A stretch of 64,000 nt of DNA, taken from positions 15,460,501 through 15,524,500 of the forward strand of contig CM076944.1 in assembly GCA_039566865.1 (NCBI GenBank), written 5' to 3'. This document shows positions 21,760 through 62,852 of this stretch, one piece after another; the first letter of the stretch is position 1, and the number at the start of each line of letters is the position of its first letter. The stretch comes from Aurelia coerulea. Lineage: Eukaryota; Cnidaria; Scyphozoa; Semaeostomeae; Ulmaridae. The notes under the pieces are model-generated. The model saw only the letters and a program-made list of their open reading frames with translations. It was not told where the DNA came from and searched no databases. The position numbers were made by a program, and so were the translations under genes.

Positions 21760-22838
21760 CATTTGGTACAAATTCGATGGGTGGAATGCAAGCTGTCTCC
21801 TTAGTTAGGATGCTTTATATACCTTTTTCTTCTCCGAAGACATTCCATGTTCCCTTGAAATCGTTATACTTCTTCTAGCACCGGGTTCATTTTTATTGTC
21901 ATTTGCAGGTATGTCATTGGACTGGGAATCAAACATTTGCAATCTTTTCGCCTTTTACGTGTTAAAGATTTAAAGATCTTTTAGAGAAAAAAAAGAGCTC
22001 CGCACGACGCTTCTTTCAATGTTTCAACAAAATCTTGTTGCAGTCACAAGCTATAATGCCTGTTTCGTCACCAGCTCCTTTACTGGTCTGTGAAATGTCT
22101 AGGGCTGAGGCAGGCACAACCTAAAATCCGCATTGATCACTTGTTATGAGATCTTATTGACAGAGTGACACGTTCTCTGCATGGTTCTCTGCTCCTGGTA
22201 TTTAACTCCAACAGAAAAAGCAACAAAGAGTTGAATTTGCTCTTTTCTTTATGCAAAATAGAAACGAGAGATCTTTTTTTTATTCAATACAAATTTTTTT
22301 TACAAACAAACTACTTAACGCAGACTGGGCACCTTTTGCCAAGAAATGAGTGCAAGAAGCAAATCGTGCTCATTTGTGGCAACTGGTGCATTCGCACAAA
22401 TTTTGGACCGCTGAATTCGAAAATCACTGTTGCCAAGCTAAATTTCGCGTTTTTCGTGCCTAATTTGCATAATTTAAACATGGCGGAATTTTGGAACATA
22501 GATTTCTGTGGTCTTTGTTTACTATTTGTTATAAACGAGTTTGACCTGTCTTATTTGGGGTATTTTATCATTCTGGATCCTTTGAAATCGAAAATATTTC
22601 ATAATTGATCTTCTAATCTCCATAAAATCAAGATGGCAGACTTTTCACTAATGACGTCATGACCCTTTTAAATCTGAGATACATATCATAAATTTTCAAT
22701 TTCAGCAGAAATCTACAATGCTTACAATTTATATTTTGTTCAACTAAAGTAGCTCATTTTCAGTCTGCCAGGACACTTCATTTAAATATCTGTCAAATGG
22801 ATGATGTCATGATACATACGAAATCTTCTATTTTTGTA

Positions 22839-37599: not shown

Positions 37600-37711
<112 letters not shown>

Positions 37712-37725
37712 AGCATTGTCTCAAA

Positions 37726-38043
37726 TTCATATTCCCTTGATCATTTGTTCACAATAACACACGATTTTCTGTTCCCAAGTTCATTCTTGAAGGAGAAGCC
37801 GTCTGATGTCAATTTCGTGTTCCATTGATCATTAGTTCACAATAACACATGTTCCTGAATTCCGGTAGTCCCAAATATCATTATCTCAACTTCGTGTTCC
37901 CTTGATCATTAGTTCACAACAACACATGTTCCTGAATTCCGGTAGTCCCAAATATCATTATCTCAAATTCGTATTCCCTTGATCATTTGTTCACAATAAC
38001 ACACAATTTTTTGTCCCAAGATCATTCTTGGAGGAGAAGCCAA
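37726..38043 (+). repeat. Tandem repeat, four units of about 77-88 bp
   Basis: Units begin at 37726, 37814, 37891 and 37968 with TTCRTATTCCCTTGATCATT then GTTCACAA.AACACA. The middle two are nearly identical. The outer two share a variant ending in 'tcattcttgaaggagaagcc'. The array lies between the GAT tract and the helicase gene. Confidence 0.85.
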
Positions 38044-38521: not shown

Positions 38522-41095
38522 TGCACTGGCACAAAAAAAGGGATCCATTTCTTTATATCTGCACTAACTGGCACGAACACCAATGCTAGAGAATCAAGAC
38601 AGGGCGAACAAAATCCGGAAGCGACCGAAAAAGAAGAGCTAACACAAGCTGGGCAGTCGATTGAAGCTACAGAGAACAGCGAAAAAGAAATTCTGTCTGA
38701 CAAGTCAGAAGCTGAAGATGAAGAAGAGAAACCGCTGATAGTTACCTCATTTTTTAACCCTGGAGTGGCATACTTTGTGGCTTACAGTCCCTTAGAAGAC
38801 TGCAGCGTTGAGTCGATAGTACGATTGCTTCACAACGAAGACACCGAAGCAAATGTTAAAAGCATCAACACACGTGTGTCATTTGCAGAGGAAGAAAAGG
38901 CCACAGCAAGATTGGCAAAAGAACTTTCCGTGGTTGTGAAAGATCACAAGAACTTTGCTGTGCGACAACTGGCATCTGATTCAGCACGCTTCTGCTATAC
39001 TAAGAAAATAGCCTCCATTGCAACTCATTGGACAAGAGATAAAGTGGAACGGGCATTTGAGAATGGTGAGACACCAACCCAAATGGCAAAGAAGTATCAA
39101 ACACATGTGCGGATAGTTGTTGTCAACCCAAATGTATTAGAAGACGTGAGGCGAGCAGCTCTCCAGTTGGACAAAGATGGTCTTCAATTTCGGCTGGTAG
39201 AACTTGTAAAAGAGAATGCAACAGCGCCTATGGTCGCCCAGCCAAGTTCTGACCTATTTATGACGATTGAAAGGCTAAACCATGCCATGCAGAAATTCCA
39301 GCATATCCTGTACAAAGGCAGCGTATATGGCATGCCGAAAGCAGCCAGATTTACCTATGTTGAGATGATGACAGTGGAGAAATACCTAAACAAGATGCTT
39401 GCAAGTAAAGTCATGAGGGAAGGTATTGGAAAGCACATGGGAAATCTGATAAAGATGATGTCAACAGATGCATGCGAGATCTTCAAGCAGATGACAATTG
39501 ATTTCAATTTGATTGAGGTTAAGGATGGTATGTTCTTTGACATTCGTAAGCGTAAATTCATCGAATGTCCATTGGGGCCGGAGCAGAAAGGCACCATTTC
39601 TCCACGCATGTTCATAGATTTCGATAGCAAATTGGAAAGTGATGCAAAGTATTTCAAGGAGGGAATCATGAATTCATTTGAGGAGGATCAGGAACGTGCA
39701 ATGTTTCTCAACAAATTTTACCAGTGCCTAATGGCACACAAGATGCCCCATAAAATCAGGAAGCTGGTGGTCTTTGGACCAAAAGATTCTGGCAAAACCA
39801 GCTGGCTGAATGTTTTGTTGGGAGTCATCCCTTCAAAAAGGGTAGCAGCAATCACCAGCGAGAAGCAAATTGCTGCGTCTATGATTGACGAGAACACGGA
39901 GCTAGTCTTCATGGATGAATGGTCAGAAAATACCCTAAATTCTGACATGGCAAAAACTGTGCTGCAAGGCGGAATGATGGTGAAGTCAATAAAACACCAA
40001 TCTCCGTCAATTGTCGACAACTCCAGTCCCTTCTACATAACAACAAATTGCGTACCACATTTCGGAATCGAGGAGGAGAACGTTCGAAGACGTATCACTT
40101 GTTTCGAAACAGAGTCCTTGCCATCTACTGTAGTCGGGGCAGACAAATGGATGCGCAAAAACTCCATGGCGTGCATTCGCTGGATGGCCAGTGAGATTAC
40201 GAAGTATCGGGACTTCATAGAACCGGAAGAGCTGTGGTACGAGGAACAAATTCAAAAAGAGAGTGAAGATCCCGACTTTGCAAACGGTGGAGGTAAAGAC
40301 CTCCTCGATATAAAGACACTAGAAGACCTACAAGAAGCAGATGTGTCATCAGGTGTAAGAATCATGGCTGCTGAAGAGCCGAATTACATCGCTCCGGTAT
40401 GCTTCATTCATCCGGACCTGCAAGCAGACGCAGTGGAAATTTCAAATCAGGCATCAACTGAGCTGGAAGAGGAGGATCGTCTCCTTGGTCTGCTTGACAA
40501 TTTGCAAGAAACGTCTGTCACAGACAACAGCAATACAGCAATCCACCAAGTACAGTCAAATTTGTTGCAGCAAACAAATGATTTACCGACGACATCCAAT
40601 GAGGAAGTTGCAACAAGGTATGTAAGTAGCTGCCAGTATCAACCATTAAACGAAGGAGAAGAATCTGATGATGAGATACCATGTGCACAGCCAGAACAAA
40701 CTGCAGAGTTAAACAGCTACAGTTTTTACCGGCAAGTAAAATGCCAGCTCGACAATTCCTTCTTTGAAAAACGTCCCCTCACCTATACACACAAATGTAT
40801 AGCAAAAGCAAGACTGGAACGAGAAGAGATGCCATCACACATTGCAGAAAGTTGGCACCTCGCTATGGGTGAGTTCGGCAACATCAACAGTGAAGAGCTC
40901 TTTGATAAATATCCCCACATAATCGATGTGATACAGAATCTTCGGGAAAAAATAGGTATACGTTTAGTAAGGAGTAGCCCTGCCAGCCAAGGTGAGCCGG
41001 TGTTTGTTGCTGCAAGAAGATTAAGGGAAACAAAACGCTCGCTAGAAGACATAGCAGAAACCTCCCAGCCAAAGAAGACAAAGCACAAAAATTGA
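38522..41095 (+). CDS. Superfamily 3 helicase-like replication protein, 5' end undefined
   Basis: The frame is open from a stop at 38519 to TGA at 41093-41095. The first in-frame ATG lies well inside it, so the true start is probably in an upstream exon. Residues below are counted from 38765. The N-terminal third is mixed alpha/beta without a recognised nuclease motif. Residues 255-335 resemble the region before the ATPase in D5-like helicases. Then come Walker A GPKDSGKT (338-345), Walker B ELVFMDEW (379-386), motif C FYITTN (423-428) and an arginine-finger block NVRRRI (439-444), the full SF3 set. The acidic middle-to-C-terminal region ends in basic PKKTKHK, a likely nuclear signal. SF3 enzymes unwind origins in small viruses, phages and plasmids. 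The tail-to-tail neighbour encodes a tyrosine recombinase. It is not a LINE or host gene that I recognise. Confidence 0.85.
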   Translation, partial: CTGTKKGIHFFISALTGTNTNARESRQGEQNPEATEKEELTQAGQSIEATENSEKEILSDKSEAEDEEEKPLIVTSFFNPGVAYFVAYSPLEDCSVESIVRLLHNEDTEANVKSINTRVSFAEEEKATARLAKELSVVVKDHKNFAVRQLASDSARFCYTKKIASIATHWTRDKVERAFENGETPTQMAKKYQTHVRIVVVNPNVLEDVRRAALQLDKDGLQFRLVELVKENATAPMVAQPSSDLFMTIERLNHAMQKFQHILYKGSVYGMPKAARFTYVEMMTVEKYLNKMLASKVMREGIGKHMGNLIKMMSTDACEIFKQMTIDFNLIEVKDGMFFDIRKRKFIECPLGPEQKGTISPRMFIDFDSKLESDAKYFKEGIMNSFEEDQERAMFLNKFYQCLMAHKMPHKIRKLVVFGPKDSGKTSWLNVLLGVIPSKRVAAITSEKQIAASMIDENTELVFMDEWSENTLNSDMAKTVLQGGMMVKSIKHQSPSIVDNSSPFYITTNCVPHFGIEEENVRRRITCFETESLPSTVVGADKWMRKNSMACIRWMASEITKYRDFIEPEELWYEEQIQKESEDPDFANGGGKDLLDIKTLEDLQEADVSSGVRIMAAEEPNYIAPVCFIHPDLQADAVEISNQASTELEEEDRLLGLLDNLQETSVTDNSNTAIHQVQSNLLQQTNDLPTTSNEEVATRYVSSCQYQPLNEGEESDDEIPCAQPEQTAELNSYSFYRQVKCQLDNSFFEKRPLTYTHKCIAKARLEREEMPSHIAESWHLAMGEFGNINSEELFDKYPHIIDVIQNLREKIGIRLVRSSPASQGEPVFVAARRLRETKRSLEDIAETSQPKKTKHKN

Positions 41096-41272
41096 CTCTT
41101 TTGAGTAAACACCGATGAGTGACAACAAAATTAAACATTTGTTGCGTTAAATATACATATGATTGTATTCCGTCCATAATTGTTATGATTGTATTCGTAT
41201 TTCTGAAAGAATTCAGAAAAACAGCTGTCTACAGTTCATGATGTGTGAATTCTCCTCCATGTCACATAATTT

Positions 41273-41760
41273 AACGGCAAAGGCAAATGACCAAGTATTT
41301 TGGCGCGCAATTTGAAATAGTTTTGAACACCTCCATGCTGTCCATGAAATCGTTGGCTTTGGTTGGGCTCATTCCAGTTGAAGCCAATGGTGAGCCAATG
41401 GTAGAACAATAGAGAACAAAAGAAGCCCACTGAGCCCACGGTTTTATGGATGAAAGTTATTCTAAATGCGGGGTAACATTCCTGCACTTCCTATTAATCA
41501 ACTGCGGAGGCAGATCATTACGTCATATGGCACTGGTGTCAAAGGCATGCTAAAATGACCAAGTGTTTTGGCGCGCAATTTGAAATAATTTTGAATACTT
41601 CTATGCTGTCCATGAAATCGTTGGCTTGGGTTGGGCTCATTCCAGTTGAAGCCAATGGTGAGCCAATGGTAGAACAATAGAGAACAAAAGAAGCCCACTG
41701 AGCCCACTGAGCCCACGGTTTTATGGATGAAAGTAATTTTAGAACTTCAAAAGAATTCTC
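41273..41760 (-). repeat. Two tandem ~268-bp repeats between helicase and recombinase genes
   Basis: Units start with CCAAGT(A/G)TTTTGGCGCGCAA at 41291 and 41559. Each contains CCAATGGTGAGCCAATGGTAG and AGAAGCCCACTGAGCCCACG. Read on the minus strand they are about 80 percent similar by eye to the 249-bp units at 44340 and 50953, which run in the opposite direction. Confidence 0.85.
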
Positions 41761-41882
41761 CCTGCAAAATCACATCGGAACAGGGCATTGCATATAAACA
41801 AGAGTCAGATTTGAAATTGCTTTCAATTCATCAATGTTCAACTTTTAAAATTTCCAATTGTCAACAGCAATTATCTAAATAA

Positions 41883-43192
41883 TTAGAAAAGATTTCGTCC
41901 AGTATCTCTTTTATATAAGTCCTGAAACTGGGTTGTCCTTGCTCTTCGCAATAGGGCGTTTCTTGTACGTCCTTCCGCAAAATTCAAGCTTGTATCTGAA
42001 AGAATCTTTACCCATTTTCCAAGACCATGCTTCTTGATTCCTTTTAGTAACTGATTATCCTCGAATGCACTAAACAAGACCATGCAGTCGGTAGCTGATT
42101 TAGCACCTGACTTTGGTATTTTAGGATTTCTCGACCTCGTGCTGCTGCAGATGCCTTGTGCATCCACACCATTCTGCTCAGTCTCTTTGTCCAAAAGTGC
42201 GGTATGTGCAGTGTGGATGTCTTCCGTGTCCAAATTTCCCTCTGTCTCGTAGCTTGTGGCCAAAGTTTCCAAAGATTTATCCATGCTCCTTCCTTGCTCA
42301 CCACGCAGTTTCTTTAGGCAGTCGTTACCTCTCTCAGCCACGTCGCGAGAGCGCTTTTTCCGGTAATGGATCTTTGCAACGTTTGATGTGTGTTTCTGGT
42401 CCTGGGATACGATGTCTCGTTCTTCTGCATCCAAAACATCAGTGCTCTCTGTTTCTATGATTTGTCTGTAGCGTGTTGGGTGCACATACTTTCCAATAGC
42501 GTCATGAACGAGAATTCCCATAGCTTGGTCTAATTTGAGGAACTGCCCACCGCTTCTGTTTACAAGAAGAAAGTCGCAATGGGGCTTTAGGTGTGGCCAG
42601 ACGTACTCAATGTAGTCACTCAGTATTTTCATGCTTATGTCATCTATGACAAGGGAGTCAAACGTATGCTTCCCGGCTGTTTTGAACGTCTTCTGATCTA
42701 CGAAACCTCCATTTGCGGCAGCTGATGTAACCATGGATACTGTGAGGAACTGATACGTCATGGGCCGGGTTCCTTTCACCCTCAAGAAAAGATACGTTGC
42801 AATGAATCTCGTTGCAAATGTCAATTGTGACGGGGTAATATTGATCGATCCCTCCTTGCAGTCTTTCAATAGGTTCTTGTACCGTTCAATATGAAATGGT
42901 ATCACTTGTTGCAGTTCCGTCATCGTCGCCCAGTGCCCTTTTCTCCGCAAGGTATCTATATCAAGCTCTTCACTCCAGCGAACTCTCATTTTCTTTGCAA
43001 CACATTTACGAGCTCTTTTTAGCAGCGCCACTGCCACAATGAAATTATTGAGGCTATTGCTGTCGATGCCTTTGAATTTCCGATATTCTACCATTTCCAG
43101 TAAAGCGTTTATGTAGCTGACATGTCCGGCGTGTCCGATACTTTCATCTTTCGTTATGTGATCTAAGAAGTTAGCAAGAAATTCCATTGAGC
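41883..43192 (-). CDS. Tyrosine recombinase, catalytic part with C-terminal Myb/SANT-like domain
   Basis: 434 codons from the ATG at 43187; coding probably starts at 43192 after an AG acceptor. Residues 1-110 look like a helical core-binding domain. Catalytic residues follow the family order: R141 in GTRPMTY, a candidate lysine at 166-173, H236 and R239 in HPTRYR, H266 in QKHTS and Y275 in KIHYRK. The H266 to Y275 spacing of nine is the classic one. A basic linker follows. Residues 372-417 (FSAFEDNQLLKGIKKHGLGKW to RTRNALLRRA) resemble a Myb/SANT DNA-binding fold like that of telobox proteins. Such enzymes cut and rejoin DNA through the tyrosine, as in Cryptons and DIRS elements. The helicase gene faces it across 790 bp of repeats. 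Confidence 0.87.
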
Positions 43193-43590
43193 CTAGATAA
43201 ATGAATTTATTAACAGTACAATAGGAAACTATTTTGTAGCAGCATTGTTAAGCTCTTAAGGGAATACTGTTGCACGCTCTCCGTGAGGCGTGCTTAGTAG
43301 GCAAATATAAAAAGCTCTTCAAGGCGTGGAGAATCACAGGTCGATAGCAAGTACTTTTATGTAAGATATAGGATCCCTCCCGCCCATCCCCTCCCTGTTT
43401 GCAGAGATTCAGGTTAGTTTCAGGCTACATGTATCAAATGAATGTACGAGTGATAGGAATAATGTGCTTTCCGTGTTTGCTCTATTTTGGCACACCTATA
43501 TACAATCTTGCTAGACTGACCTCACTACTATCTGTGTATTGTAGTTTAGTTAATAAATAAAGTTATTTTCGGTTGAATGCAATGAATTAG
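43193..43590 (-). other. Interruption of the recombinase gene: intron or insertion
   Basis: The two recombinase halves abut well if DYYF (ending at 43591) is joined to GSMEF. The right side has an AG acceptor, but there is no GT at the expected donor. TCTA occurs at both borders (after TATTATTT on the left half, before GG on the right half). Joining at TCTA would keep the frame through DYYFLGSMEF, so a roughly 400-bp insertion with a 4-bp duplication is as likely as an intron. Confidence 0.5.
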
Positions 43591-44097
43591 AAAATAATAG
43601 TCAATTTTTTCACTTGTAAGTCTATCGGTAGGATTCTCCGACAGACAATAACGTAGGAATTTTAGGGCACGTGATGATATCTGATTTGCATGCGCCTCGG
43701 TGCGTCCTCCACCACTGCAACTACACATCCAGCGTATGAAATGCTCAGAAAATGCAATATCCTCGCAGACAGCTCCATTACTGCTCAACTGACTTGAGTT
43801 GCCATTTACCAGACTGTCTTCCTGGTCTTTGCCTTTTTCACAAACCACATCACTTGGGTATTTATCGAAGTAATAGAACCAAGGGTGGATTGTCTGAATA
43901 TGTTTTCTGCATCCTCTCTCGCTACGGAATCTTTCATGATCACACTCGCTGACTGGGCAAGGACACACCCCATCCTTATCCTTTTTCAAGTGCAATCGCC
44001 TCTTTATCTTTGCAGCGCCTTGTAAGGCTTTCCAGTTCTTAGTCGTCTTGTCGGCCATCTGCCATCGCTGATATTTAGGCACAACTAGGTCATTCAT
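43591..44097 (-). CDS. Tyrosine recombinase, N-terminal part with C2H2-like finger
   Basis: It starts at ATG 44097 (MNDLVVPKYQRW). Residues 1-45 are basic (TTKNWKALQG, KRRLHLKKDKDG). Next is a finger of the form CPVSEC...H....H (C-x4-C-x11-H-x4-H) followed by PWFYYFDKYP. After an acidic linker, SEHFIRWMCSCSGGGRTEAHANQIS to LKFLRYCL reads like the start of the core-binding domain, which continues in the downstream part at 43192. The frame runs on to a stop at 43546, but the natural junction is near 43591. I infer that both parts form one protein of about 600 residues. Confidence 0.75.
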
Positions 44098-44339: not shown

Positions 44340-44648
44340 ATAAAATACTTTGGCATTTTAGCATGCCTAAGTGACGTATGATTTGCCTCCGCAGTTAATA
44401 CGAAATGTAGGAATGCTACCCCGTATCTAAAATTACTTTTATCCCTACAACCGTGGGCTCAGTGGGCTTCTTTTGTTCTCTATTGTTCTACCATTGGCTC
44501 ACTGTTGGCTTCCATTGTAATGAGCCCATGCAAAGCCAACCAGTTCATGGACTGTATACATATGTTCAAAATGATTTGAAACTACGCGCCAAAATACTTT
44601 GTCATTTTAGCATGCCTAAGTGACGTATGATTTGCCTCCGCAGTTCAT
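44340..44648 (+). repeat. 249-bp tandem repeat, left part of the outer array
   Basis: Units begin ATGCCTAAGTGACGTATGAT at 44363 and 44612. Each has TTTGCCTCCGCAGTT, ACCGTGGGCTCAGTGGGCTT and CTACGCGCCAAAATACTT. The second unit is cut at 44648 by the DIRS/Ngaro-type element; the array resumes at 50953. It is inverted relative to 41273-41760. Confidence 0.9.
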
Positions 44649-44842
44649 GTATTCTCACCGGATATGTCTCTCCGAGTTTCAATAAAAGTAAGAATATGCC
44701 CATGCCTTCTCGCCCCTTGGGACCATAACCTATTTAAACAAATTCAACGAGGCTATTCAGTCATTCTTTATGAGCTACAAGCAACGAAACATCAAAATCT
44801 GTAGGCTGCTCATAATATTCACCGTCGCTGACAGATCAAATG
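44649..44842 (+). repeat. A1 of the split direct repeats
   Basis: It begins GTATTCTCACCGGATATGTC and is nearly identical to A2 for about 143 bp, up to CAAGCAACGAAAC, then diverges but remains alignable for about 50 bp more. It abuts the cut 249-bp unit. Confidence 0.85.
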
Positions 44843-45083
44843 GCTGAGGCCCAAGTCCCATGAAATTTGCCTCAAGCAGATTTCTTGGATATTCTCCAAG
44901 CGGCAGTCCCAGAGATACAACAGCCAGACCAGAACGCCGCTCAGAATGCTGTGCAACAGGCCGATTTTGGCCCAGTGGTACGTTGTTATTACTTTTGCTA
45001 CCTGTTTGTTTTTCCTATGCCTTGAGTTGATCTGGCCATGCATATTTTCAGTCTTTGTTGCAAATTTGTTTTTCAACCTTTTT
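44843..45083 (+). other. Possible gag-like remnant of the DIRS/Ngaro-type element
   Basis: A short plus frame around 44870-44990 (FLDILQAAVPEIQQPDQNAA) precedes the satellite. It looks coding-like but is too short to assign; the antisense 118-codon frame is probably fortuitous. Confidence 0.3.
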
Positions 45084-46620
45084 AGGGGCCGATTCGTTTT
45101 AATTCTTATTCGGTGACCCAGAAAATTTAACAAGTATTGTGCACGTGCTAGGGGTCTCGCAGAGTGAAAACACATGGCTTTTGACTGATTTTTAGGGGTC
45201 TTTTAGTGGCAACTCTAGGCTAATATGCCTCTTTAGATCTTAGGAATAAATGCTTCAATTTTGCAGAATTTAGGGTTTTTGTTAGGGGCCGAATTTCTAT
45301 TCGGCGACCCAAAAACATTGAACTGTTTCTGTGCACTTGCTAGGGGTCACGCAGAGTGATAACCCATGGCTTTTGACTGATTTTTAGGGGCCTTTTCGTG
45401 GCAACCCTAGGCTAATATGCCTCTTTAGATCTTAGGAATAAATGTTTCAATTTTGCAGAATTTAGGGATTCTGTTAGGGGCCGAATTTCTATTCGGCGAC
45501 CCAAAAACATTGAACTGCTTCTGCGCACTTGCTAGGGGTCACGCAGAGTGATAACCCATGGCTTTTGACTGATTTTTAGGGGTCTTTTTCGTGGCAACCC
45601 TAGGCTAATATGCCTCTTTAGATCTTAGGAATAAATGTTTCAATTTTGCAGAATTTAGGGATTTTGTTAGGGGCCGATTCGATTTAATTTTTTACTCGGC
45701 GACCCAAATAATTGAACTGTTTTTGTGCAAGTGCTAGGGGTCACGCAGAGTGATAACCCATGGCTTTTGACTGATTTTTAGGGGCCTTTTCGTGGCAACC
45801 CTAGGCTAATATGCCTCTTTAGATCTTAGAAATAAATGTTTCAGTTTTGCAGAATTTAGGGATTTTGTTAGGGGCCGATTCGTTTTAATTTTTTACTCGG
45901 CGACCCAAATAATTGAACTGTTTCTGTGCAAGTGCTAGGGGTCACGCAGAGTGATAACCCATGGCTTTTGACTGATTTTTGGGGGCCTTTTCGTGGCAAC
46001 CCTAGGCTAATATGCCTCTTTAGATCTTAGAAATAAATGTTAAATTTTTCCAGCATTTAGGGATTTGTTAGGGGCCGATTCGTTTAATTTTTATTCGGCA
46101 ACCCAAATAATTGAACTGTTTTTGTGCAAGTGCTAGGGGTCACGCAGAGTGATAACCCATGGCTTTTGACTGATTTTTAGGGGCCTTTTTCGTGGCAACC
46201 CAAGGCTAATATGCCTCTTTAGATCTTAGGAATCAATTTTTCAATTTTGCAGAATTTAGGGTTTTTGTTAGGGGCCGATTCGTTTTAATTTTTATTCGGC
46301 GACCCAAATAATTGAACTGTTTTTGTGCAAGTGCTAGGGGTCACGCGGAATGATAACCCATGGCTTTTGACTGATTTATAAGTGCTTTTTTGTGGCAACC
46401 CTAGGCTAATATGCCTTTTTAGATCTTAGGAATAAGTTTTTCAATTTTGCAAAAATTGGGGATTTGTTAGGGGCCGATTCGTTTTAATTCTTATTCGGCG
46501 ACCCAAAAAATTGAACAGTTTTTGTGCACATGCTAGGAGTCACGCAGAGTGATAACCCATGATTTTTGACTGATTTTTGGGGGTCTTTTTTCGTGGCAAT
46601 CCCTAGGCTAATGCATTTTA
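45084..46620 (+). repeat. Satellite array, about eight units of 192-202 bp
   Basis: The marker TTGACTGATTTTT recurs at 45181, 45373, 45565, 45767, 45968, 46166, 46367 and 46566. Units share GTTAGGGGCCGATTCG, TATTCGGCGACCCAAA, GCTAGGGGTCACGCAGAGTG and CCTAGGCTAATATGCC. The first three steps are 192 and the later ones 198-202. Divergence rises toward the right end. It lies in the 5' internal part of the DIRS/Ngaro-type element. Confidence 0.93.
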
Positions 46621-47579
46621 CATCAAAAAGGAAAAATTTCTTCTACCTTGCAAAAGATAGTTGAATATATTCCGATCGGCTACCCTTCTAAGAATTCTAG
46701 AAAAAAGAAACAATGCCACCTTGGCTTTCCTCAAGCAATACGGTCTGACATGCTCGATATTTAGACACTTTTTACATTCTTCCTAGCCCATTATTGCCTC
46801 TAAAACTAAGTCTTTTGACCATACATACATTGTTGCCTTTGCTATACATCAATCAAATATACTATCATACTTCCATATTGCGCATGTGTTAATGTTTGTG
46901 GTATCCACAGAGATACAGCAATTATTATAGTCAGAGAATACTGCAACTGGGTCCACTTTATCTCCTCCGCGAGGTTTCTTTAGTTTTCCTTTTCTTTTTC
47001 TGCAGTTCCATGGTCCCCGATTCTGTGGTCCGTAATTCTCTCTTTTTTAAAAAAACTATCTGTGTAGGCAAAATAGCTAAGTTATTGCTCAATAATATCA
47101 TGCTGCTTCGCAGCAATTACTACGGTTACCTCTCTTTCTCTCTACCCTGTAGCATCGAGTAACATTTATCTTTCTCTACTTAATTTTTTCCCTTCGCTGC
47201 ATCCTCTCCAGACCAGCCAATGTCTCGGGGGTTTAGCTAAGAACCTTTATGCGCGGCTTCAAGTTGTGCTCCGAGTGGCTGGGTTGGAGGACTCCTTTAT
47301 CAGATACCATGATCCTGCTCCTCTCTTTCGCTTGGCCTTTTCTTTTTTCAGTGTCTTCCTGCTGATTGCCTTTTCAATTTGGAAATTAAAAAATTACAGC
47401 AAGGAATTGGAGTAAGATCTCATCACAATATAATTTGGTGCAATCTGAGGGGGGAGTCCACCAATCCAGCCACTCAAAAAGCACTCGACTGTGTATCTAG
47501 AGTTAGAGACGGCAACTTCTATGCCTCTGCCAATGATGTTGTTTTCCGAGATCCAAAATCCTTTGTGGCCGGCAAAATT
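46621..47579 (+). other. Internal region of the DIRS/Ngaro-type element, decayed
   Basis: Possible coding remains in the plus strand include NLYARLQVVLRVAGLEDSF near 47240, followed by stops. GCTGCTTCGCAGCAATTA near 47103 recurs at 4410. No complete gene. Confidence 0.4.
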
Positions 47580-47898
47580 CACTACCATTATGATGCCTAG
47601 AATCTTGTCTCACAAGGGTACCACAAAAAGAGGGAAATTCTGCGCTACATCGCTGAGGGGGTCTCTGTCCACGATTTTTTCACACCTTTTAAAGGAGACT
47701 TCAAGGGGCAGCATTACAATTCAAAATTTCCCCCACGCATTAAAATTTACTAACAACAAGTCATGTGGGTCATTTGACCAATTCATTACGGAGACAATTC
47801 TCGAAAGAATTCGGAATGGCTCAATTTCTATCTGGGGGAAATGTGGACAGTGTACTCCTCCGCATATAGTCATGCCACTAACTGTAGAACCTACAAAA

Positions 47899-49504
47899 CA
47901 GGGCTTGAAAATGTCCGGCAGCACCGGCAGCGTGTGGCCGAGTGGTTAAGGCGACTGACTCGTAAACCAAAGGTCAGAACGGCCGAGGTTCGAATCCCGC
48001 TCTGGACAGTTTGGTCGCTGTCCGTAACTCTAGCCCGGGTCGACCAGAGCCATGCGAGGGAAATCTGGTAGCTGCGGCGGGTTGATGGTAAAACATCCGT
48101 GGCCCCTGCTGGAAATAAGTCTCTCTCAGACTTTCGCAGGGTAGCCACGTTAAATATGATACCTACCTACCTAGCGGCGCTGCCAGGAAATTGTTAACGA
48201 AAATGACTCGCAGGAAATTTATCACTATTTCGCAGGAAATTTCTGGCATGTTCTGGCATATTCCTAATTATCAAGTCATTTTCCTGTTCTATATTCCTTT
48301 GATATGTAACTAATTTTCGCGACAGTCCTTGTTTGAATGACGTCGTTCCACTTGTTCTCACTATTTGTACAATACAAATACCGGGTGACCTCAAAAAACT
48401 TCCCAAGCTAGATCATAGGTAGCTTTCTGAAAACAAAAGTTATTGAAAATGGTTTGTACCACCGTTTATTCAAAAGGCCTAGCTATCTTTTGAGTTGCTG
48501 CATAGGCACTCCAAGCCATGATTACTGCTCGAAAAACGAGATCGAAAGGGATTTCGAATCCATTCTTTCTCATTATTACAACCAGACTTCTTTCCAGTCA
48601 ACATTTTGTGAAAACTTAACGTAAGAGGTGGACTGGAAGTCATCTGGGGAAATTTGTTGTTTGAAAAACGATTGATATCTGTTCCTCTTTCAAAAATTGT
48701 GCTACCATGCAAAATTTGGAATTCGGCTTTGTTCCCTCTTCCAAAATATGAACGGTAGAAGGAGGACAGATTCCATGAAATGACTGACTGAACTATCATA
48801 TTTTAGGACTGGCTTTTCAGAGGGTAGTCTTAAACTAACCAGGCAATATAAAAAAAAATGTTCGCCTTTCAGCTCCAGCTACATGCTGATACCTTCTTTG
48901 TGTTCATAACATTTGCTTTAAAAAACCTAGGGGTGATCCAGTTTGTGAAGCTTATGTCTGGGTCAGCCGATCAGCCGGTGCCTTTTTTGATACTCGAATT
49001 TAAGTTTTGAACCCTTAATATGATGAAAATAGAAAGTATCATTTTATTGATTAAAAACCTTTTCTGTCCATCAAAATATAAAGTTAAGCTTTTATCCAAC
49101 TTATTACTGAGTCATTTTTGAGATCGTCAAATGGAACAGCAACCATAAAATCCAAAGCTTACAGATAGATGGTTCACTAAACATCAGCTGGGTTTGTAAT
49201 TATGTAAAATTAAGTTTACCCGTCAAAGAACTGAAAGTGTGGTCCAAAAACTTTCCATGACCACCTAATTCAATGTAAATAATAACATTGTTTCCATTAA
49301 CATCTAAATTCGATGGGCTTTTCTTCGAGTACAAGTTAGTTCTTTAGTTAGAATGCAAGTTCATTCTGGACAGAATTCGGGGATCCTGTTTGAACCATTG
49401 AAATATCTTATAATCCTACTTGCAGGAAATTTCGGCTAGATTTCGCAGAAAATTCTGATTTTTTAATTTTGTTGCCAGGAAGAAAAACCTTTTTTCCAGC
49501 CCTG
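47899..49504. mobile_element. hAT-like non-autonomous element with perfect 8-bp duplication
   Basis: Ends are CAGGGCTTGAAAA and the inverted CAGGGCTGGAAAA. CTACAAAA lies on both sides (47891-47898 and 49505-49512). Excising it with one copy of the duplication restores the RT frame across VEPTK/PRLCH. There is no transposase. The 8-bp duplication and CAGGG terminus are hAT hallmarks. A solo ACCGGGTGACCTC end near 48381 hints at another insertion inside it. Confidence 0.88.
47930..48173 (+). mobile_element. tRNA-derived SINE, Ser/Leu-type head
   Basis: An A box TGGCCGAGTGG (47935-47945) and a B box GGTTCGAATCC (47987-47997) have the spacing of a long-variable-arm tRNA. The anticodon arm does not pair well and the acceptor stem does not close, so it is not a tRNA gene. 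A GC-rich body follows and it ends in GATACCTACCTACCTA. It lies just inside the left end of the hAT-like element. Confidence 0.75.
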
Positions 49505-50049
49505 CTACAAAACCCAGGTTATGCCACGATGAAAGATATTTAAAACTATGGATGAGCTGCCGAAAAGTAATTTGACCCCATCACTGATTTGTCCCACTAT
49601 GTTGGTAAAGATCATTACCAGGCTAAACTTGATGACAAATCTGGGTATGATCACATAAAATTAACCCAAGAAAGTAAAACCTTCTTTGGCCTCCGCTGGA
49701 AGAATTGGTACTTCGTTTATAACACCATCCCATTTGGTTGGAGCCCCAGTGCTTATATTTACCAAACTGTGGGTTTGGCTGCTTCTCATTTCATCCGATC
49801 AAATGGCGTCCCTGTTACCCAGTATATAGATGATCGTCATATTGGGCAACTTCTTCCTGCTAAAACCGTCATTACCAACTGGTCTGATCTCGAACTTGCA
49901 GACGCAGCGGTTTTTATCTCTTCTCTCTCCTTCGTTTCTGGTGGCTACTTTATTGGCTTACAAAAGTCCGTCCTCTGCCAGGCCCAGAGCATTTTGTTCC
50001 TCGGTTTGATATCAAATTCCCAGGATCAGTCATTTTCAATTCCCCAAGA

Positions 50050-50084
<35 letters not shown>

Positions 50085-50594
50085 AAGAATGCTGAAAGAA
50101 TGTTTCTGTTAAAACGTTACAGCGATTTGGAGGAAAAGCTATATCTTTCTCCTTGGCTCTCCCTGCCGCACGTCTGTACACACGTGAAGTTAACGCGGGT
50201 ATAAGCTCAGGAATCAAGAATACAAGACATATTCTGGTAACTGGGAGACTGAGAAATTAGTTGGAACGCTGGCGTTATGAATGATGCAAGTTCAATCTTA
50301 GCCTCCTCGATGACAAAGCCCACATCCTCGGCTATTTCAACTGCAGAGACTCTGGGAAGGGAATACAGAGAGAGAAACTTCTTGGACGGTTTTAAAAATT
50401 ATTTGACAACTAAAGTGTCAGCATTATGTTTTTGTTGTGAAAAAAGGATGATTTAGACCCACCAGCCTGATCTTGTTTTGTTTGTCTCGTTCCTAATTTT
50501 CTTTTGAGTATTGGAAGCAGTGACTGGTCCATACTGTTCTCGTGTGTTTTGTGATGTTTTCATGAGTCTGTTCAGTTCTTAGGGGTGACCTAAG

Positions 50595-50949
50595 TCGCTT
50601 TCAGTAGCAACTCCGAAGCACTCTCCATATCTTAGTAGTTTGAAAGGAAGAGAGTCAGATCCGGTGAAAATACGTTGGTATTCTCACCGGATATGTCTCT
50701 CCGAGTTTCAATAAAAGTAAGAATATGCCCATGCCTTCTCGCCCCTTGGGACCATAACCTATTTAAACAAATTCAACGAGGCTATTCAGTCATTCTTTAT
50801 GAGCTACAAGCAACGAAACTCAGAATCTACCCACCGCTCCTCCCTCAGCGACGGATCTGCTTTCTTCCTTTCAAACGCAACTCCTCGCACTCTCCATATC
50901 TTAGTAGTTTGAAAGGAAGAGAGTCAGATCCGGTGAAAATACGTTGGTA
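50595..50949 (+). repeat. B1-A2-B2 block of the split direct repeats
   Basis: CTCTCCATATCTTAGTAGTT to ACGTTGGTA occurs at 50619-50680 (B1) and 50889-50949 (B2), essentially identical over 60 bp, with weaker matching upstream (GCAACTCC..GCACTCTCC). A2 (50678-50870) lies between them. Confidence 0.88.
50661..50690. promoter_or_regulatory. Putative recombination site at the B1/A2 junction
   Basis: Two 13-bp inverted arms, CCGGTGAAAATAC and GTATTCTCACCGG, with one mismatch, enclose a 4-bp centre GTTG. One arm is also at the left end of the element (44649-44661) and the other at the right end (50931-50943). This is the half-site arrangement expected if a circle closes at this junction. Function is inferred. 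Confidence 0.6.
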
Positions 50950-50952
50950 ATG

Positions 50953-51630
50953 ATGCCTAAGTGACGTATGATTTGCCTCCGCAGTTCATACGAAATGTAG
51001 GAATGCTACCCCGTATCTAAAATTACTTTTATCCCTACAACCGTGGGCTCAGTGGGCTTCTTTTGTTCTCTATTGTTCTACCATTGGCTCACTGTTGGCT
51101 TCCATTGTAATGAGCCCATGCAAAGCCAACCAGTTCATGGTCTGTATACATGTGTTCAAAATGATTTGAAACTACGCGTCAAAATACTTTGTCATTTTAG
51201 CATGCCTAAGTGACGTATGATTTGCCTCCGCAGTTCATACGAAATGTAGGAATGCTACCCCGTATCTAAAATTACTTTTATCCCTACAACCGTGGGCTCA
51301 GTGGGCTTCTTTTGTTCTCTACTGTTCTACAATTGGCTCACTGTTGGCTTCCATTGTAATGAGCCCATGCTAAGTCAACCAGTTCATGGACTGTATACAT
51401 GTGTTCAAAATGATTTGAAACTACGCGCCAAAATACTTTGTCATTTTAGCATGCCTAAGTGACGTATGATTTGCCTCCGCAGTTCATACGAAATGTAGGA
51501 ATGCTACCCCGTATCTAAAATTACCTTCATCCTTACAACCGTGGGCTCAGTGGGCTTCTTTTGTTCTCTATTGTTCTACCATTGGCTCACTGTTGGCTTC
51601 CATTGTAATGAGCCCACGCAAAGCCAACGA
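50953..51630 (+). repeat. 249-bp tandem repeat, right part of the outer array
   Basis: Units start at 50953, 51202 and 51451, exactly 249 bp apart. The last stops at about 51630 after CCACGCAAAGCCAACGATT. Units are nearly identical. They continue the array at 44340-44648. Confidence 0.92.
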
Positions 51631-52114
51631 TTGATATGGGTGTTTCCTGTGAAATTATGATTAGCCAGCACAATGATTAAGAACAATAGGAAATAAAGGA
51701 ATTTTTGAACAGCAGCATGTTTGGACTTAAATCCATTGATGAAGTATGTGTACATATGTCATCTGCATTGTTCCCATGTTCCCTTGTGAATATGTATGAT
51801 GGAGAATGATTGTATTTGGTGACCAGTTCCCCTTTTATAGAACTTTGGAATATTTTTTTGGCCCATGGTTCACTTTTCCGGAACAATGGTTCTATGTTAT
51901 GAATTCTCTTGTGAGTTCTATAAGCATTCAGGGCGGACCAATTTTAATGCAATAAATTGCAAAACTGGTTTCGACCAGAGGGGTCATGAATATCAACAGG
52001 TTTTTTATGCTGAACCAAGATTTCAAATCTTAAATAAAGGGTAATACAAACAAAAACAACTAAAATCACATTTCAACAAATCATCGATAATGTTGATGAT
52101 CATCATCATCTCAT
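51631..52114. other. Non-coding DNA right of the 249-bp array
   Basis: Small near-palindromic phrases such as GGAACAATGGTTC (51880) recall GGAACCATGTTCC at 38064 on the other side of the helicase-recombinase locus, but the match is short. No gene seen. Confidence 0.35.
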
Positions 52115-52440
52115 CAGATCAGATCAGATCAGATCAGATCAGATCAGATCAGATCAGATCAGATCAGATCAGATCAGATCAGATCAGATCAGATCAGATC
52201 AGATCAGATCAGATCAGATCATCATCAGATCAGATCAGATCAGATCAGATCAGATCAGATCAGATCAGATCAGATCAGATCAGATCAGATCAGATCAGAT
52301 CAGATCAGATCAGATCACATCAGATCAGATCAGATCAGATCATCATCATCAGATCGGATCAGATCATCATCATCAGATCAGATCATCATCAGATCAGATC
52401 ATCATCATCAGATCAGATCATCATCAGATCATCATCAGAT
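52115..52440 (+). repeat. (GATCA)n pentanucleotide array
   Basis: About 50 units of AGATC, pure for the first 200 bases, then increasingly mixed with ATC triplets (52330-52440). Each unit holds a GATC tetramer. Open frames here are repeat artefacts. Confidence 0.97.
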
Positions 52441-52611
<171 letters not shown>

Positions 52612-52904: not shown

Positions 52905-53127
52905 ACAATCACTTACAAAATTGTTGAGCCACCCTGAAAAAATGAGTTTTTTAGCCCCCCCCTTTCCCCCATGTCAATGTTGTTTGGAAAAAAGTACTTG
53001 GTCATGCTGACAGACGTGGTTTGGCAACTTTTTAGTGGTTTCTCAACATTGACTAGGGGAAAGGGGGGAAAGCAGAGGCAAAAAACAGACAATCTGAGGG
53101 TGGCTCAACAATTTTGTAAGTGATTGT
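52905..53127. mobile_element. 223-bp hairpin element at the start of the array unit
   Basis: ACAATCACTTACAAAATTGT and AATTGTTGAGCCACCCTGA are mirrored by TCTGAGGGTGGCTCAACAAT and TTTTGTAAGTGATTGT. In copies 2-4 the inverted ends reach further (TTTCAG/CTGAAA). Inner arms share CCCCCTTTCCCCC/GGGGGAAAGGGG. The same hairpin recurs at 55475, 58050 and 60625. Confidence 0.85.
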
Positions 53128-55474
53128 CTGAAATGCTTGCAACTTCGACTTCAGTTTACGCGAAGAGTACCGAGGCCAACTGCATGAAATTTTGTACTTG
53201 GCATGTTATTGACACATAGTTTCGAATGTGTTGTTTTTAAAATTTTTTACCAACTGTAAATAATTTACGAGATTTTTTAAAAAAGGCCCTTTTTCGCCAT
53301 TTTGCAAGAAAATGGCATAATTGCATAGTTTTCTCAAAATTTTCATTGTTTTGACGTACTTTCCCTTTAGCTTCAATCTTGTAAGATATTGATATGATTC
53401 TTATTTTCATTTGCCTTCAATCATACTCTGGCAACTGCGATGCAACTAGGGTGGGAGAGGGTATTTTCGTTTGGCCTATTTGTATGGAATTCTCCCTTTG
53501 ACTGGCTATATTGTTCTTAAACGCTGTTCATAAACGTCACTTTTACAACAGAATTTTATAGTGATGATATTCTATATGTTTGAGTGATACAATTGAATAA
53601 AATGTTCTATTTACAATTATAATCGATATACGACTGTAACATTGCCATCTGGTTCGTGTGTGTTCATGGTGAATTACGTCATCAGTGCTCGCCACAAGGC
53701 TCACTACAATGCTCACCAACATTGCTCGTTTGTATTCCTTGTTTCTAACGAAGAAAAACGAAAAAACTTTGCGCAAAACGCATATTATCTTGTGAGTATG
53801 AGCAGACACTCTCATTACAGACCAATGAAAATAAAAAATCTCCGCGGTGAGTTGAAATTGAACCAATTTACCAACATTGCTCGTTTTTAGTACATTTAAA
53901 ATATTTTTGAAATCCTTTTTAGTAGCTATAAAAGTGGGAATTGTTGAAGTTTTAGTCATTTTGCATCTAATCAGTGTAGAATTTTTGAGTAAAAAGCTAG
54001 CCTATGTGTACACATGGGCTTTTGCTACATCTTGGGTGGCTTCGTTTATTTGTTCGTCAACTTTCTTGGACGCACAAGAAACTTTAAAAAGTGAGAATTG
54101 TTGGCGAGCAATGTTCAAGATCACTCACTCAGTCTATCATTTAGTGATTTGACCTCTTGAACAATTGCAGTTCAGTGGTCCGATGATAAATTGTTTGTTA
54201 TCCTTTATAAGCGGTTCCAAAAGAACTAATGCTGGTTTCAAAGGGGAAACATATACCCTTTTCATTCATTTGGCATTTAAAGAATAGAGGAATATTGGCC
54301 AATAAAGCATTGAGCCGTTATTGTCACTCCCTCAAGCAGCATGACAAATACTGGTAGCAACATTACTTTGCGAACCGAAAAAAAAGGTTAAACAATTTTC
54401 TCAGTTGCCATATGTTTTAAGGTGAAATTTCTCAATCATGACAGCAATGAAAGAATTTAGACAAAGGCCTGTGTTTCTCCGTAAACACAGGGCAGCGAGT
54501 TGTCATCGTATGAAAGTAATACCGATGGTAATGAAAACCCCCATTCTTATGCCGTTCAAGTGAAGTTTCCCACATTGAAATGCGGATAATCCTTACTGCA
54601 AAACACTCAACCACAACATCTGGAAAGCTTTGACGACTTGGAAACTTGTCTAAGTCACCTTGACTGTTCGTGAGGAGAAAGATGGTGCGCTGTGGTGAAC
54701 TTGCTGCCATTTTGAAGTCGAACTGTCGAATTTTCAAATTTCCCGCGCTCACTCAAGTGTATAAATTCCCTTCTAAATACAACAATATGGGATATATTTT
54801 GTCGATTATGGAGGTAATTGTAGAACAATATGTTTTCTAACTCGAAGATACAACTAACAGAGACTATAGATGTTGTAAAGTCGTTTGGAAATGAAATTCC
54901 TTCTTTAAATGCGAGGCGTAGCAATGGTAAATTTAGGACGGCTGCAGGCCTACAAGTCTTCAGGCAGAGGGAAGTAATGGTAGACACGTTATCTGTTTAA
55001 AAGAGTCTGAATGTACGTGTATATTGCCATGTTCAACAAAATAAATTTTCCAACTTCGAATTATCGTTTCCCCATGCAACAGTCTTTATGAAAAAAACAG
55101 GCAGATTCCGATGAATTACCCAATTTTTTGAAAAGCACGCAGAAAATGGGAAGTTGTGCTGCTTCGCCATTTTCATTTAAAAAATATAAGTCAAAACGTT
55201 GATTCAAATTCTACTAATGCAATAACAGTAAATATCTTGTCATGTGCCAACGCCTCAGCTGCTTATTAAGAGATGTAACCAACTAGGCCAATGGTGTAAA
55301 AATAGCCAAAATGAGCATATTTTCTAAGGGACGCTGCGAGGCTGCACTAGCGTTCAAAAATTCAAAAAAAATTAGAGGACTGCCTTTATGCAATTATTGC
55401 TAGTCCTGTTAATTTGAAAGTATTTGAATGAAAGACCTTAAAGTTATGACGCCTTAAATGTACAACATTTTCAG
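52905..55474 (+). repeat. 2.57-kb tandem unit, copy 1
   Basis: It opens with ACAATCACTTACAAAATTGT, the end of a 223-bp hairpin. The sequence before it (CTTATGT) differs from that before the later copies (TTTTCAG), so the array starts at the hairpin end. This is the most diverged copy: it has small indels (for example near 55180, which break a frame open in copies 3 and 4) and several substitutions. Open frames on both strands (138 and 82 codons around 53543-53959, 91 codons at 53877) lack known motifs. Confidence 0.93.
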
Positions 55475-58049
55475 ACAATCACTTACAAAATTGTTGAGCC
55501 ACCCTGAAAAAAATGAGTTTTTTGGACCCCCTTTCCCCCATTTCAATGTTGTTTGGAAAAAAGTACTTGGTCATGCTGACAGACATGGTTTGGCAACTTT
55601 TTAGTGGATTTTCAACATTGACTAGGGGAAAGGGGGGGAAAGCAGAGGCAAAAAACAGAAAATCTGAGGGTGGCTCAACAATTTTGTAAGTGATTGTCTG
55701 AAATGCTTGCAACTTCGACTTCAGTTTACGCGAAGAGTACCGAGGCCAACTGCATGAAATTTTGTACTTGGCATGTTATTGACACATAGTTTCAAAATGT
55801 GTTGCTTTTAAAATTTTTTACCAACTCTATATAATATACGAGATTTTTGAAAAAGGCACTTTTTCGCCATTTTGCAAGAAAATGGCATAATTGCATAGTT
55901 TTCTCAAAATTTTCATTTTTTTGACGTACTTTCCCTTTAGCTTCAATCTTGTAAGATATTGATATGATTCTTATTTTCATTTGCCTTCAATCATACTCTG
56001 GCAACTGCGATGCAACTAGGGTGGGAGAGGGTATTTTCGTTTGGCCTATTTGTATGGAATTCTCCCTTTGACTGGCTATATTGTTCTTAAACGCTGTTCA
56101 TAAACGTCACTTTTACAACAGAATTTTATAGTGATGATATTCTATATGTTTGAGTGATACAATTGAATAAAATGTTCTATTTACAATTATAATCGATATA
56201 CGACTGTAACATTGCCATCTGGTTCGTGTGTGTTCATGGTGAATTACGTCATCAGTGCTCGCCACAAGGCTCACTACAATGCTCACCAACATTGCTCGTT
56301 TGTATTCCTTGTTTCTAACGAAGAAAAACGAAAAAACTTTGCGCAAAACGCATATTATCTTGTGAGTATGAGCAGACACTCTCATTACAGACCAATGAAA
56401 ATAAAAAATCTCCGCGGTGAGTTGAAATTGAACCAATTTACCAACATTGCTCGTTTTTAGTACCTTTAAAATATTTTTGAAATCCTTTTTAGTAGCTATA
56501 AAAATGGGAATTGTTGAAGTTTTAGTCATTTTGCATCTAATCAGTGTAGAATTTTTGAGTAAAAAGCTAGCCTATGTGTACACACGGGCTTTTGCTACAT
56601 CTTGGGTGGCTTCGTTTATTTGTTCGTCAACTTTCTTGGACGCACAAGAAACTTTAAAAAGTGAGAATTGTTGGCGAGCAATGTTCAAGATCACTCACTC
56701 AGTCTATCATTTAGTGATTTGACCTCTTGAACAATTGCAGTTCAGTGGTCCGATGATAAATTGTTTGTTATCCTTTATAAGCGGTTCCAAAAGAACTAAT
56801 GCTGGTTTCAAAGGGGAAACATATACCCTTTTCATTCATTTGGCATTTAAAGAATAGAGGAATATTGGCCAATAAAGCATGGAGCCGTTATTGTCACTCC
56901 CTCAAGCAGCATGACAAATACTGGTAGGAACATTACTTTGCGAACCGAACAAACAAGGTTAAACAATTTTCTCAGTTGTCATATGTTTTAAGGTGAAATT
57001 TCTCGATCATGACGGCAATGAAAGAATTTAGACAAAGGCCTGTGTTTCTCCGTAAACACAGGGCAGCGAGTTGTCATCGTATGAAAGTAATACCGATGGT
57101 AATGAAAACCCCCATTCTTATGCCGTTCAAGTGAAGTTTCCCACATTGAAATGCGGATAATCCTTACTGCAAAACACTCAACCACAACATCTGGAAAACT
57201 TTGACGACTTGGAAACTTGTCTAAGTCACCTTGACTGTACGTGAGGAGAAAGATGGTGCGCTGTGGTGAACTTGCTGCCATTTTGAAGTCGAACTGTCGC
57301 ATTTTCAAATTTCCCGCGCTCACTCAAGTGCATAGATTCCCTTCTAAATACAACAATATGGGATATATTTTGTCGATTATGGAGGTAATTGTAGAACAAT
57401 ATGTTTTCTAACTCGAAGATACAACTAACAGAGACTATAGATGTTGTAAAGTCGTTTGGAAATTAAATTCCTTCTTTAAATGCGAAGCAATGGTAAATTT
57501 AGGACGGCTGCAGGCCTACAAGACTTCAGGCAGAGGGAAGTAATGGTAGACACGTTATCTGTTTAAAAGAGTCTGTATTTAAACGTGTATATTGCCATGT
57601 TCAACAAAATAAATTTTCCAACTTCGAATTATCGTTTCCCCATGCAACAGTCTTTATGAAAAAACAGCCAGATTCCGATGAATTACCCAATTTTTTGAAA
57701 AGCACGCAGAAAATGGGAAGTTGTGCTGCTTCGCCATTTTCCTTTAAAAAACATAAGTTAGTAATTCAAAACGTTGATTTGAATTCTACTAATGCAATAA
57801 CAGTAAATATCTTGTCATGTGCCAACGCCTCAGCTGCTTATTAAGAGATGTAACCAACTAGGCCAATGGTGTAAAAATAGCCAAAATGAGCATATTTTCT
57901 AAGGGACGCTGCGAGGCCGCACTAGCGTTCAAAAATTCAAAAAAAATTAGAGGACTGCCTTTATGCAATTATTGCTAGCCCTGTTAATTTGAAAGTATTT
58001 GAAGTAAAGACCTTAAAGTTATGACGCCTTAAAGGTACAACATTTTCAG
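55475..58049 (+). repeat. 2.57-kb tandem unit, copy 2
   Basis: 2,575 bp and in register with the others. It differs from copies 3 and 4 at scattered positions (for example GGACCCCCT against GGCCCCCCT near the hairpin). Its antisense 138-codon frame has one change relative to copy 3 (PIF against PTF). Confidence 0.95.

Positions 58050-62791: not shown

Positions 62792-62852
<61 letters not shown>

Follow-up and report, generated by a model that had tools for sequence, protein, structure and literature searches.

A candidate two-gene integrating replicon with convergent SF3 helicase and tyrosine recombinase genes in the genome of Aurelia coerulea

Polinton-like viruses already combine an SF3 helicase with a tyrosine recombinase (YR), an enzyme which is also used by DIRS, Ngaro and PAT retrotransposons and by the eukaryotic DNA elements known as Cryptons. 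Excision followed by re-integration is in itself conservative, and for this reason the gain of copies by YR DNA transposons such as Cryptons is not obvious. In the excerpted text of PMC3212892, CryptonA is reported in cnidarians, animal Cryptons are described as having neither a C-terminal domain nor terminal repeats, no terminal inverted repeats are reported for Cryptons, and a circular intermediate is proposed. Excerpts of two further papers report a tyrosine recombinase in polinton-like viruses and virophages (PMC12220804) and RepE1 cressviruses in sea anemones (PMC11071296).

The locus described here lies in a window of 64,000 nucleotides, the whole stretch of Aurelia coerulea DNA that was analysed, and was originally predicted to be an undescribed replicating and integrating element. 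It resembles Cryptons as a YR-encoding eukaryotic DNA element with R-H-R-Y residues and no noticed terminal inverted repeats, and has a short core at both ends, as fungal and oomycete Cryptons do in the excerpt of PMC3212892. It differs from them in having a second, convergent gene of replication type, a YR with a zinc-finger-like motif at the N-terminus and a TRF-like Myb domain at the C-terminus, where animal Cryptons are reported to have no C-terminal domain, and insertion sites that are mostly microsatellites. It shares an SF3 helicase and a YR with polinton-like viruses and virophages (for the YR, PMC12220804, in excerpt), but at about 7-10 kb it has no capsid, packaging or polymerase gene that could be seen, and in one of its lineages SF3 gives way to a CRESS-type Rep. 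Bacterial integrative plasmids and SaPI-type islands, a comparison which does not extend to whole-element homology, differ from an element with an animal host and two genes only. No description of an SF3-YR or Rep-YR animal element was seen among the papers listed in the literature searches, which reached few preprints and neither Repbase reports nor subscription journals; the pairing as such is known from polinton-like viruses.

The window copy and its two genes

The element extends from about 37711 to about 52094 of the window (Table 1), and the interval 38522..44097 originally assigned to it was too narrow. The copy is damaged: its YR gene is split by an insertion and a retroelement sits inside one of the repeat arrays. 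The SF3 and YR frames are convergent with 787 bp between them, in agreement with the 790 bp first noted, and the shared repeats noticed around the genes are real, consisting of ~250-bp units in R1 and in both parts of R2. R1 units are more numerous in other copies than the two of the window.

Table 1. Positions of the features of the element and its junctions in the window
Feature	Position	Strand	Remark
(GAT)n microsatellite, target side of left junction	37600-37710	+	host sequence, then (GAT)n, then left end
Left end, begins GAGCATTG, 77-bp tandem repeats	37711-38041	+	boundary ambiguous within GAT
SF3 helicase (replication-initiator-like) gene	38522-41095	+	stop-free frame, 857 codons
Repeat array R1 between the convergent genes	41285-41743	-	~250-bp units, 2 here
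YR catalytic part: core-binding and catalytic domains, C-terminal TRF-like Myb domain	41883-43200	-	
Insertion splitting the YR gene	43201-43593	.	missing from three near-identical copies compared
N-terminal YR part with conserved Cys/His zinc-finger-like motif	43594-44097	-	
Repeat array R2, first part	44342-44648	+	249-bp units, inverted relative to R1
Nested retroelement, outside the SF3-YR element proper	44649-50949	+	split direct repeats, RT fragment
Split direct repeats of nested retroelement	A1 44649-44800; B1 50598-50680; A2 50678-50828; B2 50868-50949		
201-bp array of nested retroelement	45082-46612		
Reverse transcriptase (RT) fragment of nested retroelement	49571-50095		
Repeat array R2, second part	50950-51632	+	~250-bp units at 50936-51632
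Unique right-end segment, ends CATCGATAATGTT	51633-52094	+	
Right junction microsatellite	52095-52611	.	GATGAT, then ATCAG and ATC repeats

The full SF3 motif set of the original prediction was recovered, with GPKDSGKT, ELVFMDEW, FYITTN and NVRRRI all lying in the SF3 frame where conservation within the family is highest, and a random frame of the same composition would stay open with a log10 P of -21.7. The start in the window is 35 codons short (857 codons versus 892 in three other copies; a fourth has 883), and other full-length copies of the window's family are 98-99% identical in this protein. In the comparison with helicase families, models confirmed a D5/E1/parvovirus-Rep-like helicase, the PPV_E1_C model being matched by 53/64 SF3 homologues at E 0.01. 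The window protein gave no match to Viral_Rep, and nothing was found with it in a PDB sequence search. HUH-type residues in the N-terminus were considered and dropped, as the His of GVHFFIS varies across the family; the alignment of one AAV Rep68 chain over residues 1-598, with an rmsd of 10.4, is a hint only.

The YR frame (41883-43187, minus strand) contains KGTRPMTY, HPTRYRQ and DQKHTSNVAKIHY. In 22 aligned YR sequences R311, R409, H436 and Y445 (P0068 numbering) are invariant and H406 nearly so, which bears out the complete R...H-x2-R...H...Y recombinase read from the window at the outset. A Myb domain was present in 22/22 homologues scanned, and the models confirm the protein as a Xer/Cre-like recombinase that carries a TRF1-like Myb domain; against integrase Pfam models it gave no match. 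Other copies have a single YR frame of 604-605 codons. A two-exon gene is ruled out, the gap being an insertion missing from near-identical copies.

Binding of the TRF-like Myb domain to the TTAGGG-rich 201-bp array beside the YR gene was also rejected. The array holds 19/25 of the window's TTAGGG motifs but belongs to the nested retroelement, and hence lies outside the SF3-YR element. This nested retroelement resembles DIRS, Ngaro and PAT retrotransposons in its split direct repeats and its RT fragment; the SF3-YR element itself is like those retrotransposons in its use of a YR and unlike them in that its complete copy has no reverse transcriptase, the RT of the window being that of the nested element.

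Recurrence of the pair, its ends and a sister lineage

Linkage was tested in one genome, the window's own assembly of 574 Mb. A homologous YR lies within 10 kb of the SF3 helicase at 27/32 SF3 loci, with the remaining five lacking a YR, and all 27 pairs, which are spread over many large contigs, are convergent, against a chance expectation of 0.08 in this genome. SF3 and YR are one mobile element, a reading already proposed for the pair and supported by these convergent neighbours. The side-by-side recurrence to be looked for was thus found in this genome, as were shared ends at several loci; neither gene proved to be a single-copy host gene, both being multi-copy at loci with different flanks. 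A convergent SF3 or Rep accompanies the YR at 50/68 YR loci, where it is not the sole mobility gene, and 18/68 have neither. Head-to-tail arrays of element copies are present. Some pairs are mutual duplicates (tandem arrays, the C1 duplication), so independent insertions number fewer than 50. No relatives were found in the viral and prokaryote collections scanned (IMG/VR and GTDB contigs), and in other species no SF3 and YR proteins were seen, by eye, to come from contigs of equal length among 120 of 804 YR matches listed.

A complete copy on contig C5 measures 9,121 bp and has SF3 and YR as its only genes, with inverted repeat arrays around the YR. Beyond these two genes it has no frame longer than 134 codons, although intron-split genes could escape such a search, and its other frames of at least 90 codons overlap the two genes or fall in repeat units. 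Neither a capsid nor a packaging ATPase gene was seen in it, and there is no reverse transcriptase among its long genes. Left ends are preceded by GAT repeats in 7/7 distinct cases, one of them imperfect, and right ends lie in GAT repeats in 5/5 cases; two further copies of family A (families A, B, C and D being labels coined in this analysis), namely the second copy on C14 and that on C1, stop before the right end in the sequence examined. A short identical core, matching the target sequence, occurs at both junctions. The insertion sites are GAT repeats in the window's family (core GATGATG), ATAT/(AT)n in the Rep family and GAA-type sequence in another family. Inverted arms surround the core in 7/9 cases in the window's family and in none in two other families at the threshold used. 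No terminal inverted repeats were noticed in the SF3-YR element.

In a sister YR lineage the partner gene is a CRESS-type Rep and not SF3. Convergence with a YR was found at 23/31 Rep loci, while seven Rep loci stand alone and one pair is not convergent; these elements insert at ATAT, and YRs as low as 39-47% identical still keep a convergent partner. The Rep passes the Viral_Rep cut-off and has a Walker A motif, and scores 17.6 bits against helicase model PF00910, below the cut-off of 21.5 bits. By eye, EIK stands at the position of the HLQ of CRESS Reps, and the His of motif II and the Tyr-Cys of motif III were not seen at their usual place. Open frames are retained in most full-length Rep copies. 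The Rep unit showed no second long gene besides the YR and no capsid gene, within a search that intron-split genes could escape, and a PDB sequence search with the Rep found nothing. A search for the origin nonanucleotide NANTATTAC along the given strand of Rep unit L063 (5,340 bases) was negative, and its reverse-complement pattern occurs at 1375 and 2843. The Viral_Rep match of this family and the PPV_E1_C matches of the SF3 homologues recall cressviruses; unlike them, the element is integrated, its initiator is convergent with a YR, it has no capsid gene, and neither the usual nickase residues nor, on the strand searched, the nonanucleotide was seen.

Proposed cycle and competing readings

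In our judgement the element is probably a capsid-less, two-gene integrating replicon of the animal genome, which forms a circle, replicates and integrates anew through homology of its core; both the excision circles and the replication from an origin of its own are inferred. The recombinase would recombine the short core present at either end and so release the element in circular form. The SF3 protein, or the CRESS-type Rep in the sister lineage, would then open and unwind an origin of this circle, for which the inverted tandem-repeat arrays are the likeliest place, thereby raising circle copy number. Since neither initiator has the usual nickase residues, theta-type replication would be likelier than rolling-circle. 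The observed sites suggest that circles are inserted by the recombinase at targets matching the core of the element itself, and insertion beside existing copies may have produced the head-to-tail arrays. We lean slightly towards regarding this as a new class of eukaryotic element, with one YR platform, convergent exchangeable initiators, a replicating circle and site choice by core identity. An element with its own replication protein would offer a direct, testable answer to the copy gain of YR transposons, and if SF3 and Rep are exchanged within a single recombinase lineage, this would be a natural route for shuffling viral and plasmid replication genes in animal genomes. The core-matching rule makes insertion sites predictable from the sequence, and any assembly can serve to test it.

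Given that polinton-like viruses combine a YR and an SF3 helicase, the element could be a remnant of such a virus, or of another YR-integrating DNA virus, after capsid-gene loss. The possible integration of RepE1 cressviruses of sea anemones, mentioned in the excerpt of PMC11071296, points the same way, but this origin is unlikely: no further long gene was found in the 9.1-kb complete copy or in the Rep-family unit (intron-split genes could escape), and a stable two-gene design, as opposed to decay, is favoured by the large number of nearly identical copies that hold two genes and by the occurrence of two different initiators among them. Marginally more doubtful is a Crypton-like YR transposon carrying the SF3 or Rep gene as a passenger with no role in mobility. 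The YR alone suffices for Cryptons according to the excerpt of PMC3212892, and the partner-less YR loci (18/68) and a Rep devoid of the usual nickase residues would fit; a mere passenger, however, is hard to reconcile with a convergent partner in 27/27 SF3 and 23/24 Rep neighbour pairs, with YRs down to 39-47% identity, with Rep frames open in most full-length copies, and with another replication-type protein occupying the place where SF3 is absent.

The nested insertions in the window region might recall two unrelated repeats made adjacent by chance or by nesting, an extremely improbable account which is refuted in this genome by 27 pairs of a single orientation versus 0.08 expected and by common termini outside both genes. 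Equally improbable is a domesticated host locus, with which the long open frames would agree, and which is refuted for this genome by multiple copies with different flanks.

TGACGT was tried as a motif common to the repeat arrays and was unconvincing, occurring 1 to 14 times per array on both strands. The insertion sites of the element are mostly microsatellites.

A two-gene mobile element in Aurelia coerulea

A two-gene mobile element, composed of an SF3 helicase gene and a tyrosine recombinase (YR) gene, is demonstrated in the genome of Aurelia coerulea. The original prediction took the two facing genes for a candidate replicating and integrating element and proposed to check whether they recur side by side at unrelated loci. 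They do so in the 574-Mb assembly containing the window, where SF3 gave at least 47 matches at no fewer than 32 loci and YR at least 89 matches at no fewer than 68 loci; these are lower bounds, covering best-scoring candidates only, and same-strand matches at most 2.5 kb apart were merged into one locus. A YR was found within 10 kb of 27 of the 32 SF3 loci, always convergent and never in another orientation, against a chance expectation of 0.08 such neighbours, while five SF3 stood alone. As the paired SF3 proteins span from 99% down to about 30% identity to that of the window, the linkage is old. Among the 68 YR loci, the partner is SF3 at 27, a CRESS-type Rep at 23, and neither at 18.

Both predicted frames proved to be real, with the named SF3 motifs and the recombinase catalytic set each falling in the best conserved part of the respective family. 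Homologues of SF3 numbered 67 among 7,999 candidates scored, and the 63 aligned, many of them representatives of many-member clusters, are 25-94% identical to the reference P0001. YR homologues totalled 804, with details for 120 of them. The named relatives are cnidarian, namely Clytia in the SF3 homologue search and Oculina among the YR matches listed.

Unlike the window copy, which is interrupted and shortened (see table), intact copies are present at other loci. A complete copy of the window's family (family A) on contig C5 measures 9,121 bp, and one on C18 reaches 10,406 bp with extra sequence within the array. The long genes of the C5 copy are an 892-codon SF3 and a 605-codon YR only, although intron-split genes could escape; the remaining frames of at least 90 codons overlap these two or fall in repeat units. 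Repeat arrays in opposite orientation flank YR in family A, and inverted arrays occur in families B and C (the latter bearing Rep) as well; they are candidate replication origins.

Features of the window and their positions
Feature	Position	Remarks
SF3 frame	38522-41095	start shortened
YR frame	41883-43187	convergent to SF3
Insertion	43201-43593	splits YR
Nested retroelement	44649-50949	inside repeat array R2; split direct repeats A1-...-B1-A2-B2; also an RT fragment and a 201-bp tandem array that accounts for 19 of the 25 TTAGGG in the window
Tandem units	52905-62792	about four head-to-tail copies, unit ~2,575 bp, 98-99% identical, adjoining the element's right side; no long gene noticed
Inverted repeat	21754-22481 / 24242-24967	728 bp, 98.6% identical, ~1.8 kb apart; probably a recent inverted-repeat element
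Non-LTR reverse transcriptase-like frame	14664-16106	480 codons; resemblance by eye

Ends, insertion targets and tandem arrays

Comparison of near-identical copies defined the termini, and the common ends that the original prediction had proposed to look for were found family by family. In family A the left end reads (GAT)n followed by GAGCATTG, and the right end CATCGATAATGTT followed by (GAT)n. In the sequence compared, GAT repeats precede 7 of 7 distinct left ends and follow 5 of 5 distinct right ends, being imperfect on C21 (left) and in the window and at C2 25.5 Mb (right); two further copies, the one on C1 and the second on C14, do not extend to the right end in that sequence. Within the 64-kb window, runs of at least 8 GAT or ATC units occur only beside the two element ends. 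Of four left flanks compared, those on C1 and C5 are alike (81% over 79 bp), perhaps because both are tails of repeats that end in GAT. No relationship was seen among the three right flanks compared. The joined ends give GATAATGTT-GATGATG-AGCATTGTC, with arms complementary at 7 of 9 positions around a 7-bp spacer; the threshold applied revealed no inverted arms in family B or family C.

In family C, 8 insertions could be read across both of their junctions, and the flanks of 7 are distinct. Host TAT precedes the ATAT core at all 7 distinct sites (background 0.020), and the CCGG of the Rep end leads into ATAT at 5 of these 7 sites and into ATAC and ATTA at the other two; at one site (L045/L076), a host palindrome is split by the element at its (AT)n centre. 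Family B shows GAA at both junctions on C8 and on C21, the latter site lying within a minisatellite, and on C3 only its left end was seen. In known systems, YR strand exchange needs a target matching the core. The GAT, ATAT and GAA junctions thus place every family at targets that agree with the core it carries.

Tandem arrays occur in families A, C and SF3D. On C14, family A copies are joined through GAT repeats, with 9.6 kb between their SF3 starts; family C has an array of three units on C5, spaced by 6,581 and 6,938, and another array on C4, and SF3D has one on C1. The joints on C5 and C4 read CCGG-ATAT-CTCTC, as would be expected if a putative circle had inserted beside an existing copy.

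Rep as a second initiator and the proposed mechanism

Locus L063, a unit of the YR array on C5, bears a 416-codon frame convergent to YR which passes the Pfam Viral_Rep model (28.9 bits, cut-off 26), matches the PF00910 helicase model below cut-off and contains a Walker A motif. Usual CRESS Reps carry histidines in motif II and a tyrosine in motif III; by eye, neither was found at the usual places in this Rep, which makes its nicking activity doubtful. The 31 Rep loci of the assembly comprise 23 convergent with YR, one in another orientation (an inverted piece whose locus also holds a convergent one) and seven alone, all partial matches. Later duplication has copied some YR pairs: at C1 17.03-17.28 Mb three Rep-YR pairs are present twice in equal order, ~185-188 kb apart, probably a segmental duplication carrying elements, and L045 and L048, with a common flank, are counted among such copies. 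Two diverged Rep-like pieces lie on opposite strands at C11:13087469-13091676 with no YR near, and four Rep fragments without YR were seen on C9 (1.73, 4.05, 6.18 and 11.56 Mb).

Judging from this anatomy, the element would excise as a circle, replicate itself and integrate by core homology. We regard this as the best-supported mechanism and a likely one, with confidence slightly lowered by a Rep without the usual nickase residues. No account of an SF3-YR or Rep-YR element came up among the papers listed in our literature searches, nor do the parts covered of PMC6431247 contain one. In the portion seen of the Crypton paper (PMC3212892), the word helicase is absent, and animal Cryptons are described as being without the C-terminal domain and with no terminal repeats found. 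Anemones are reported in PMC11071296 to have RepE1 cressviruses that may integrate, and the same paper describes one meldvirus that combines a YR with a primase-SF2 helicase; cryptophyte PLVs carry a YR, according to the part read of PMC12220804.

Relationships among the recombinases

Ten genome YRs were compared, 8 of them in a tree. Rep-linked YRs and the SF3D YR are sisters (74% identity, support 100/100), and the initiator was therefore probably exchanged on a single YR lineage; the family A and family B YRs share 45-47% identity with each other and 39-41% with these. At C1:27.40-27.42 Mb (L061, L062), a Rep-type and an SF3-type element lie head to tail with a common YR-side end sequence, so that a single recombination site may serve both types.
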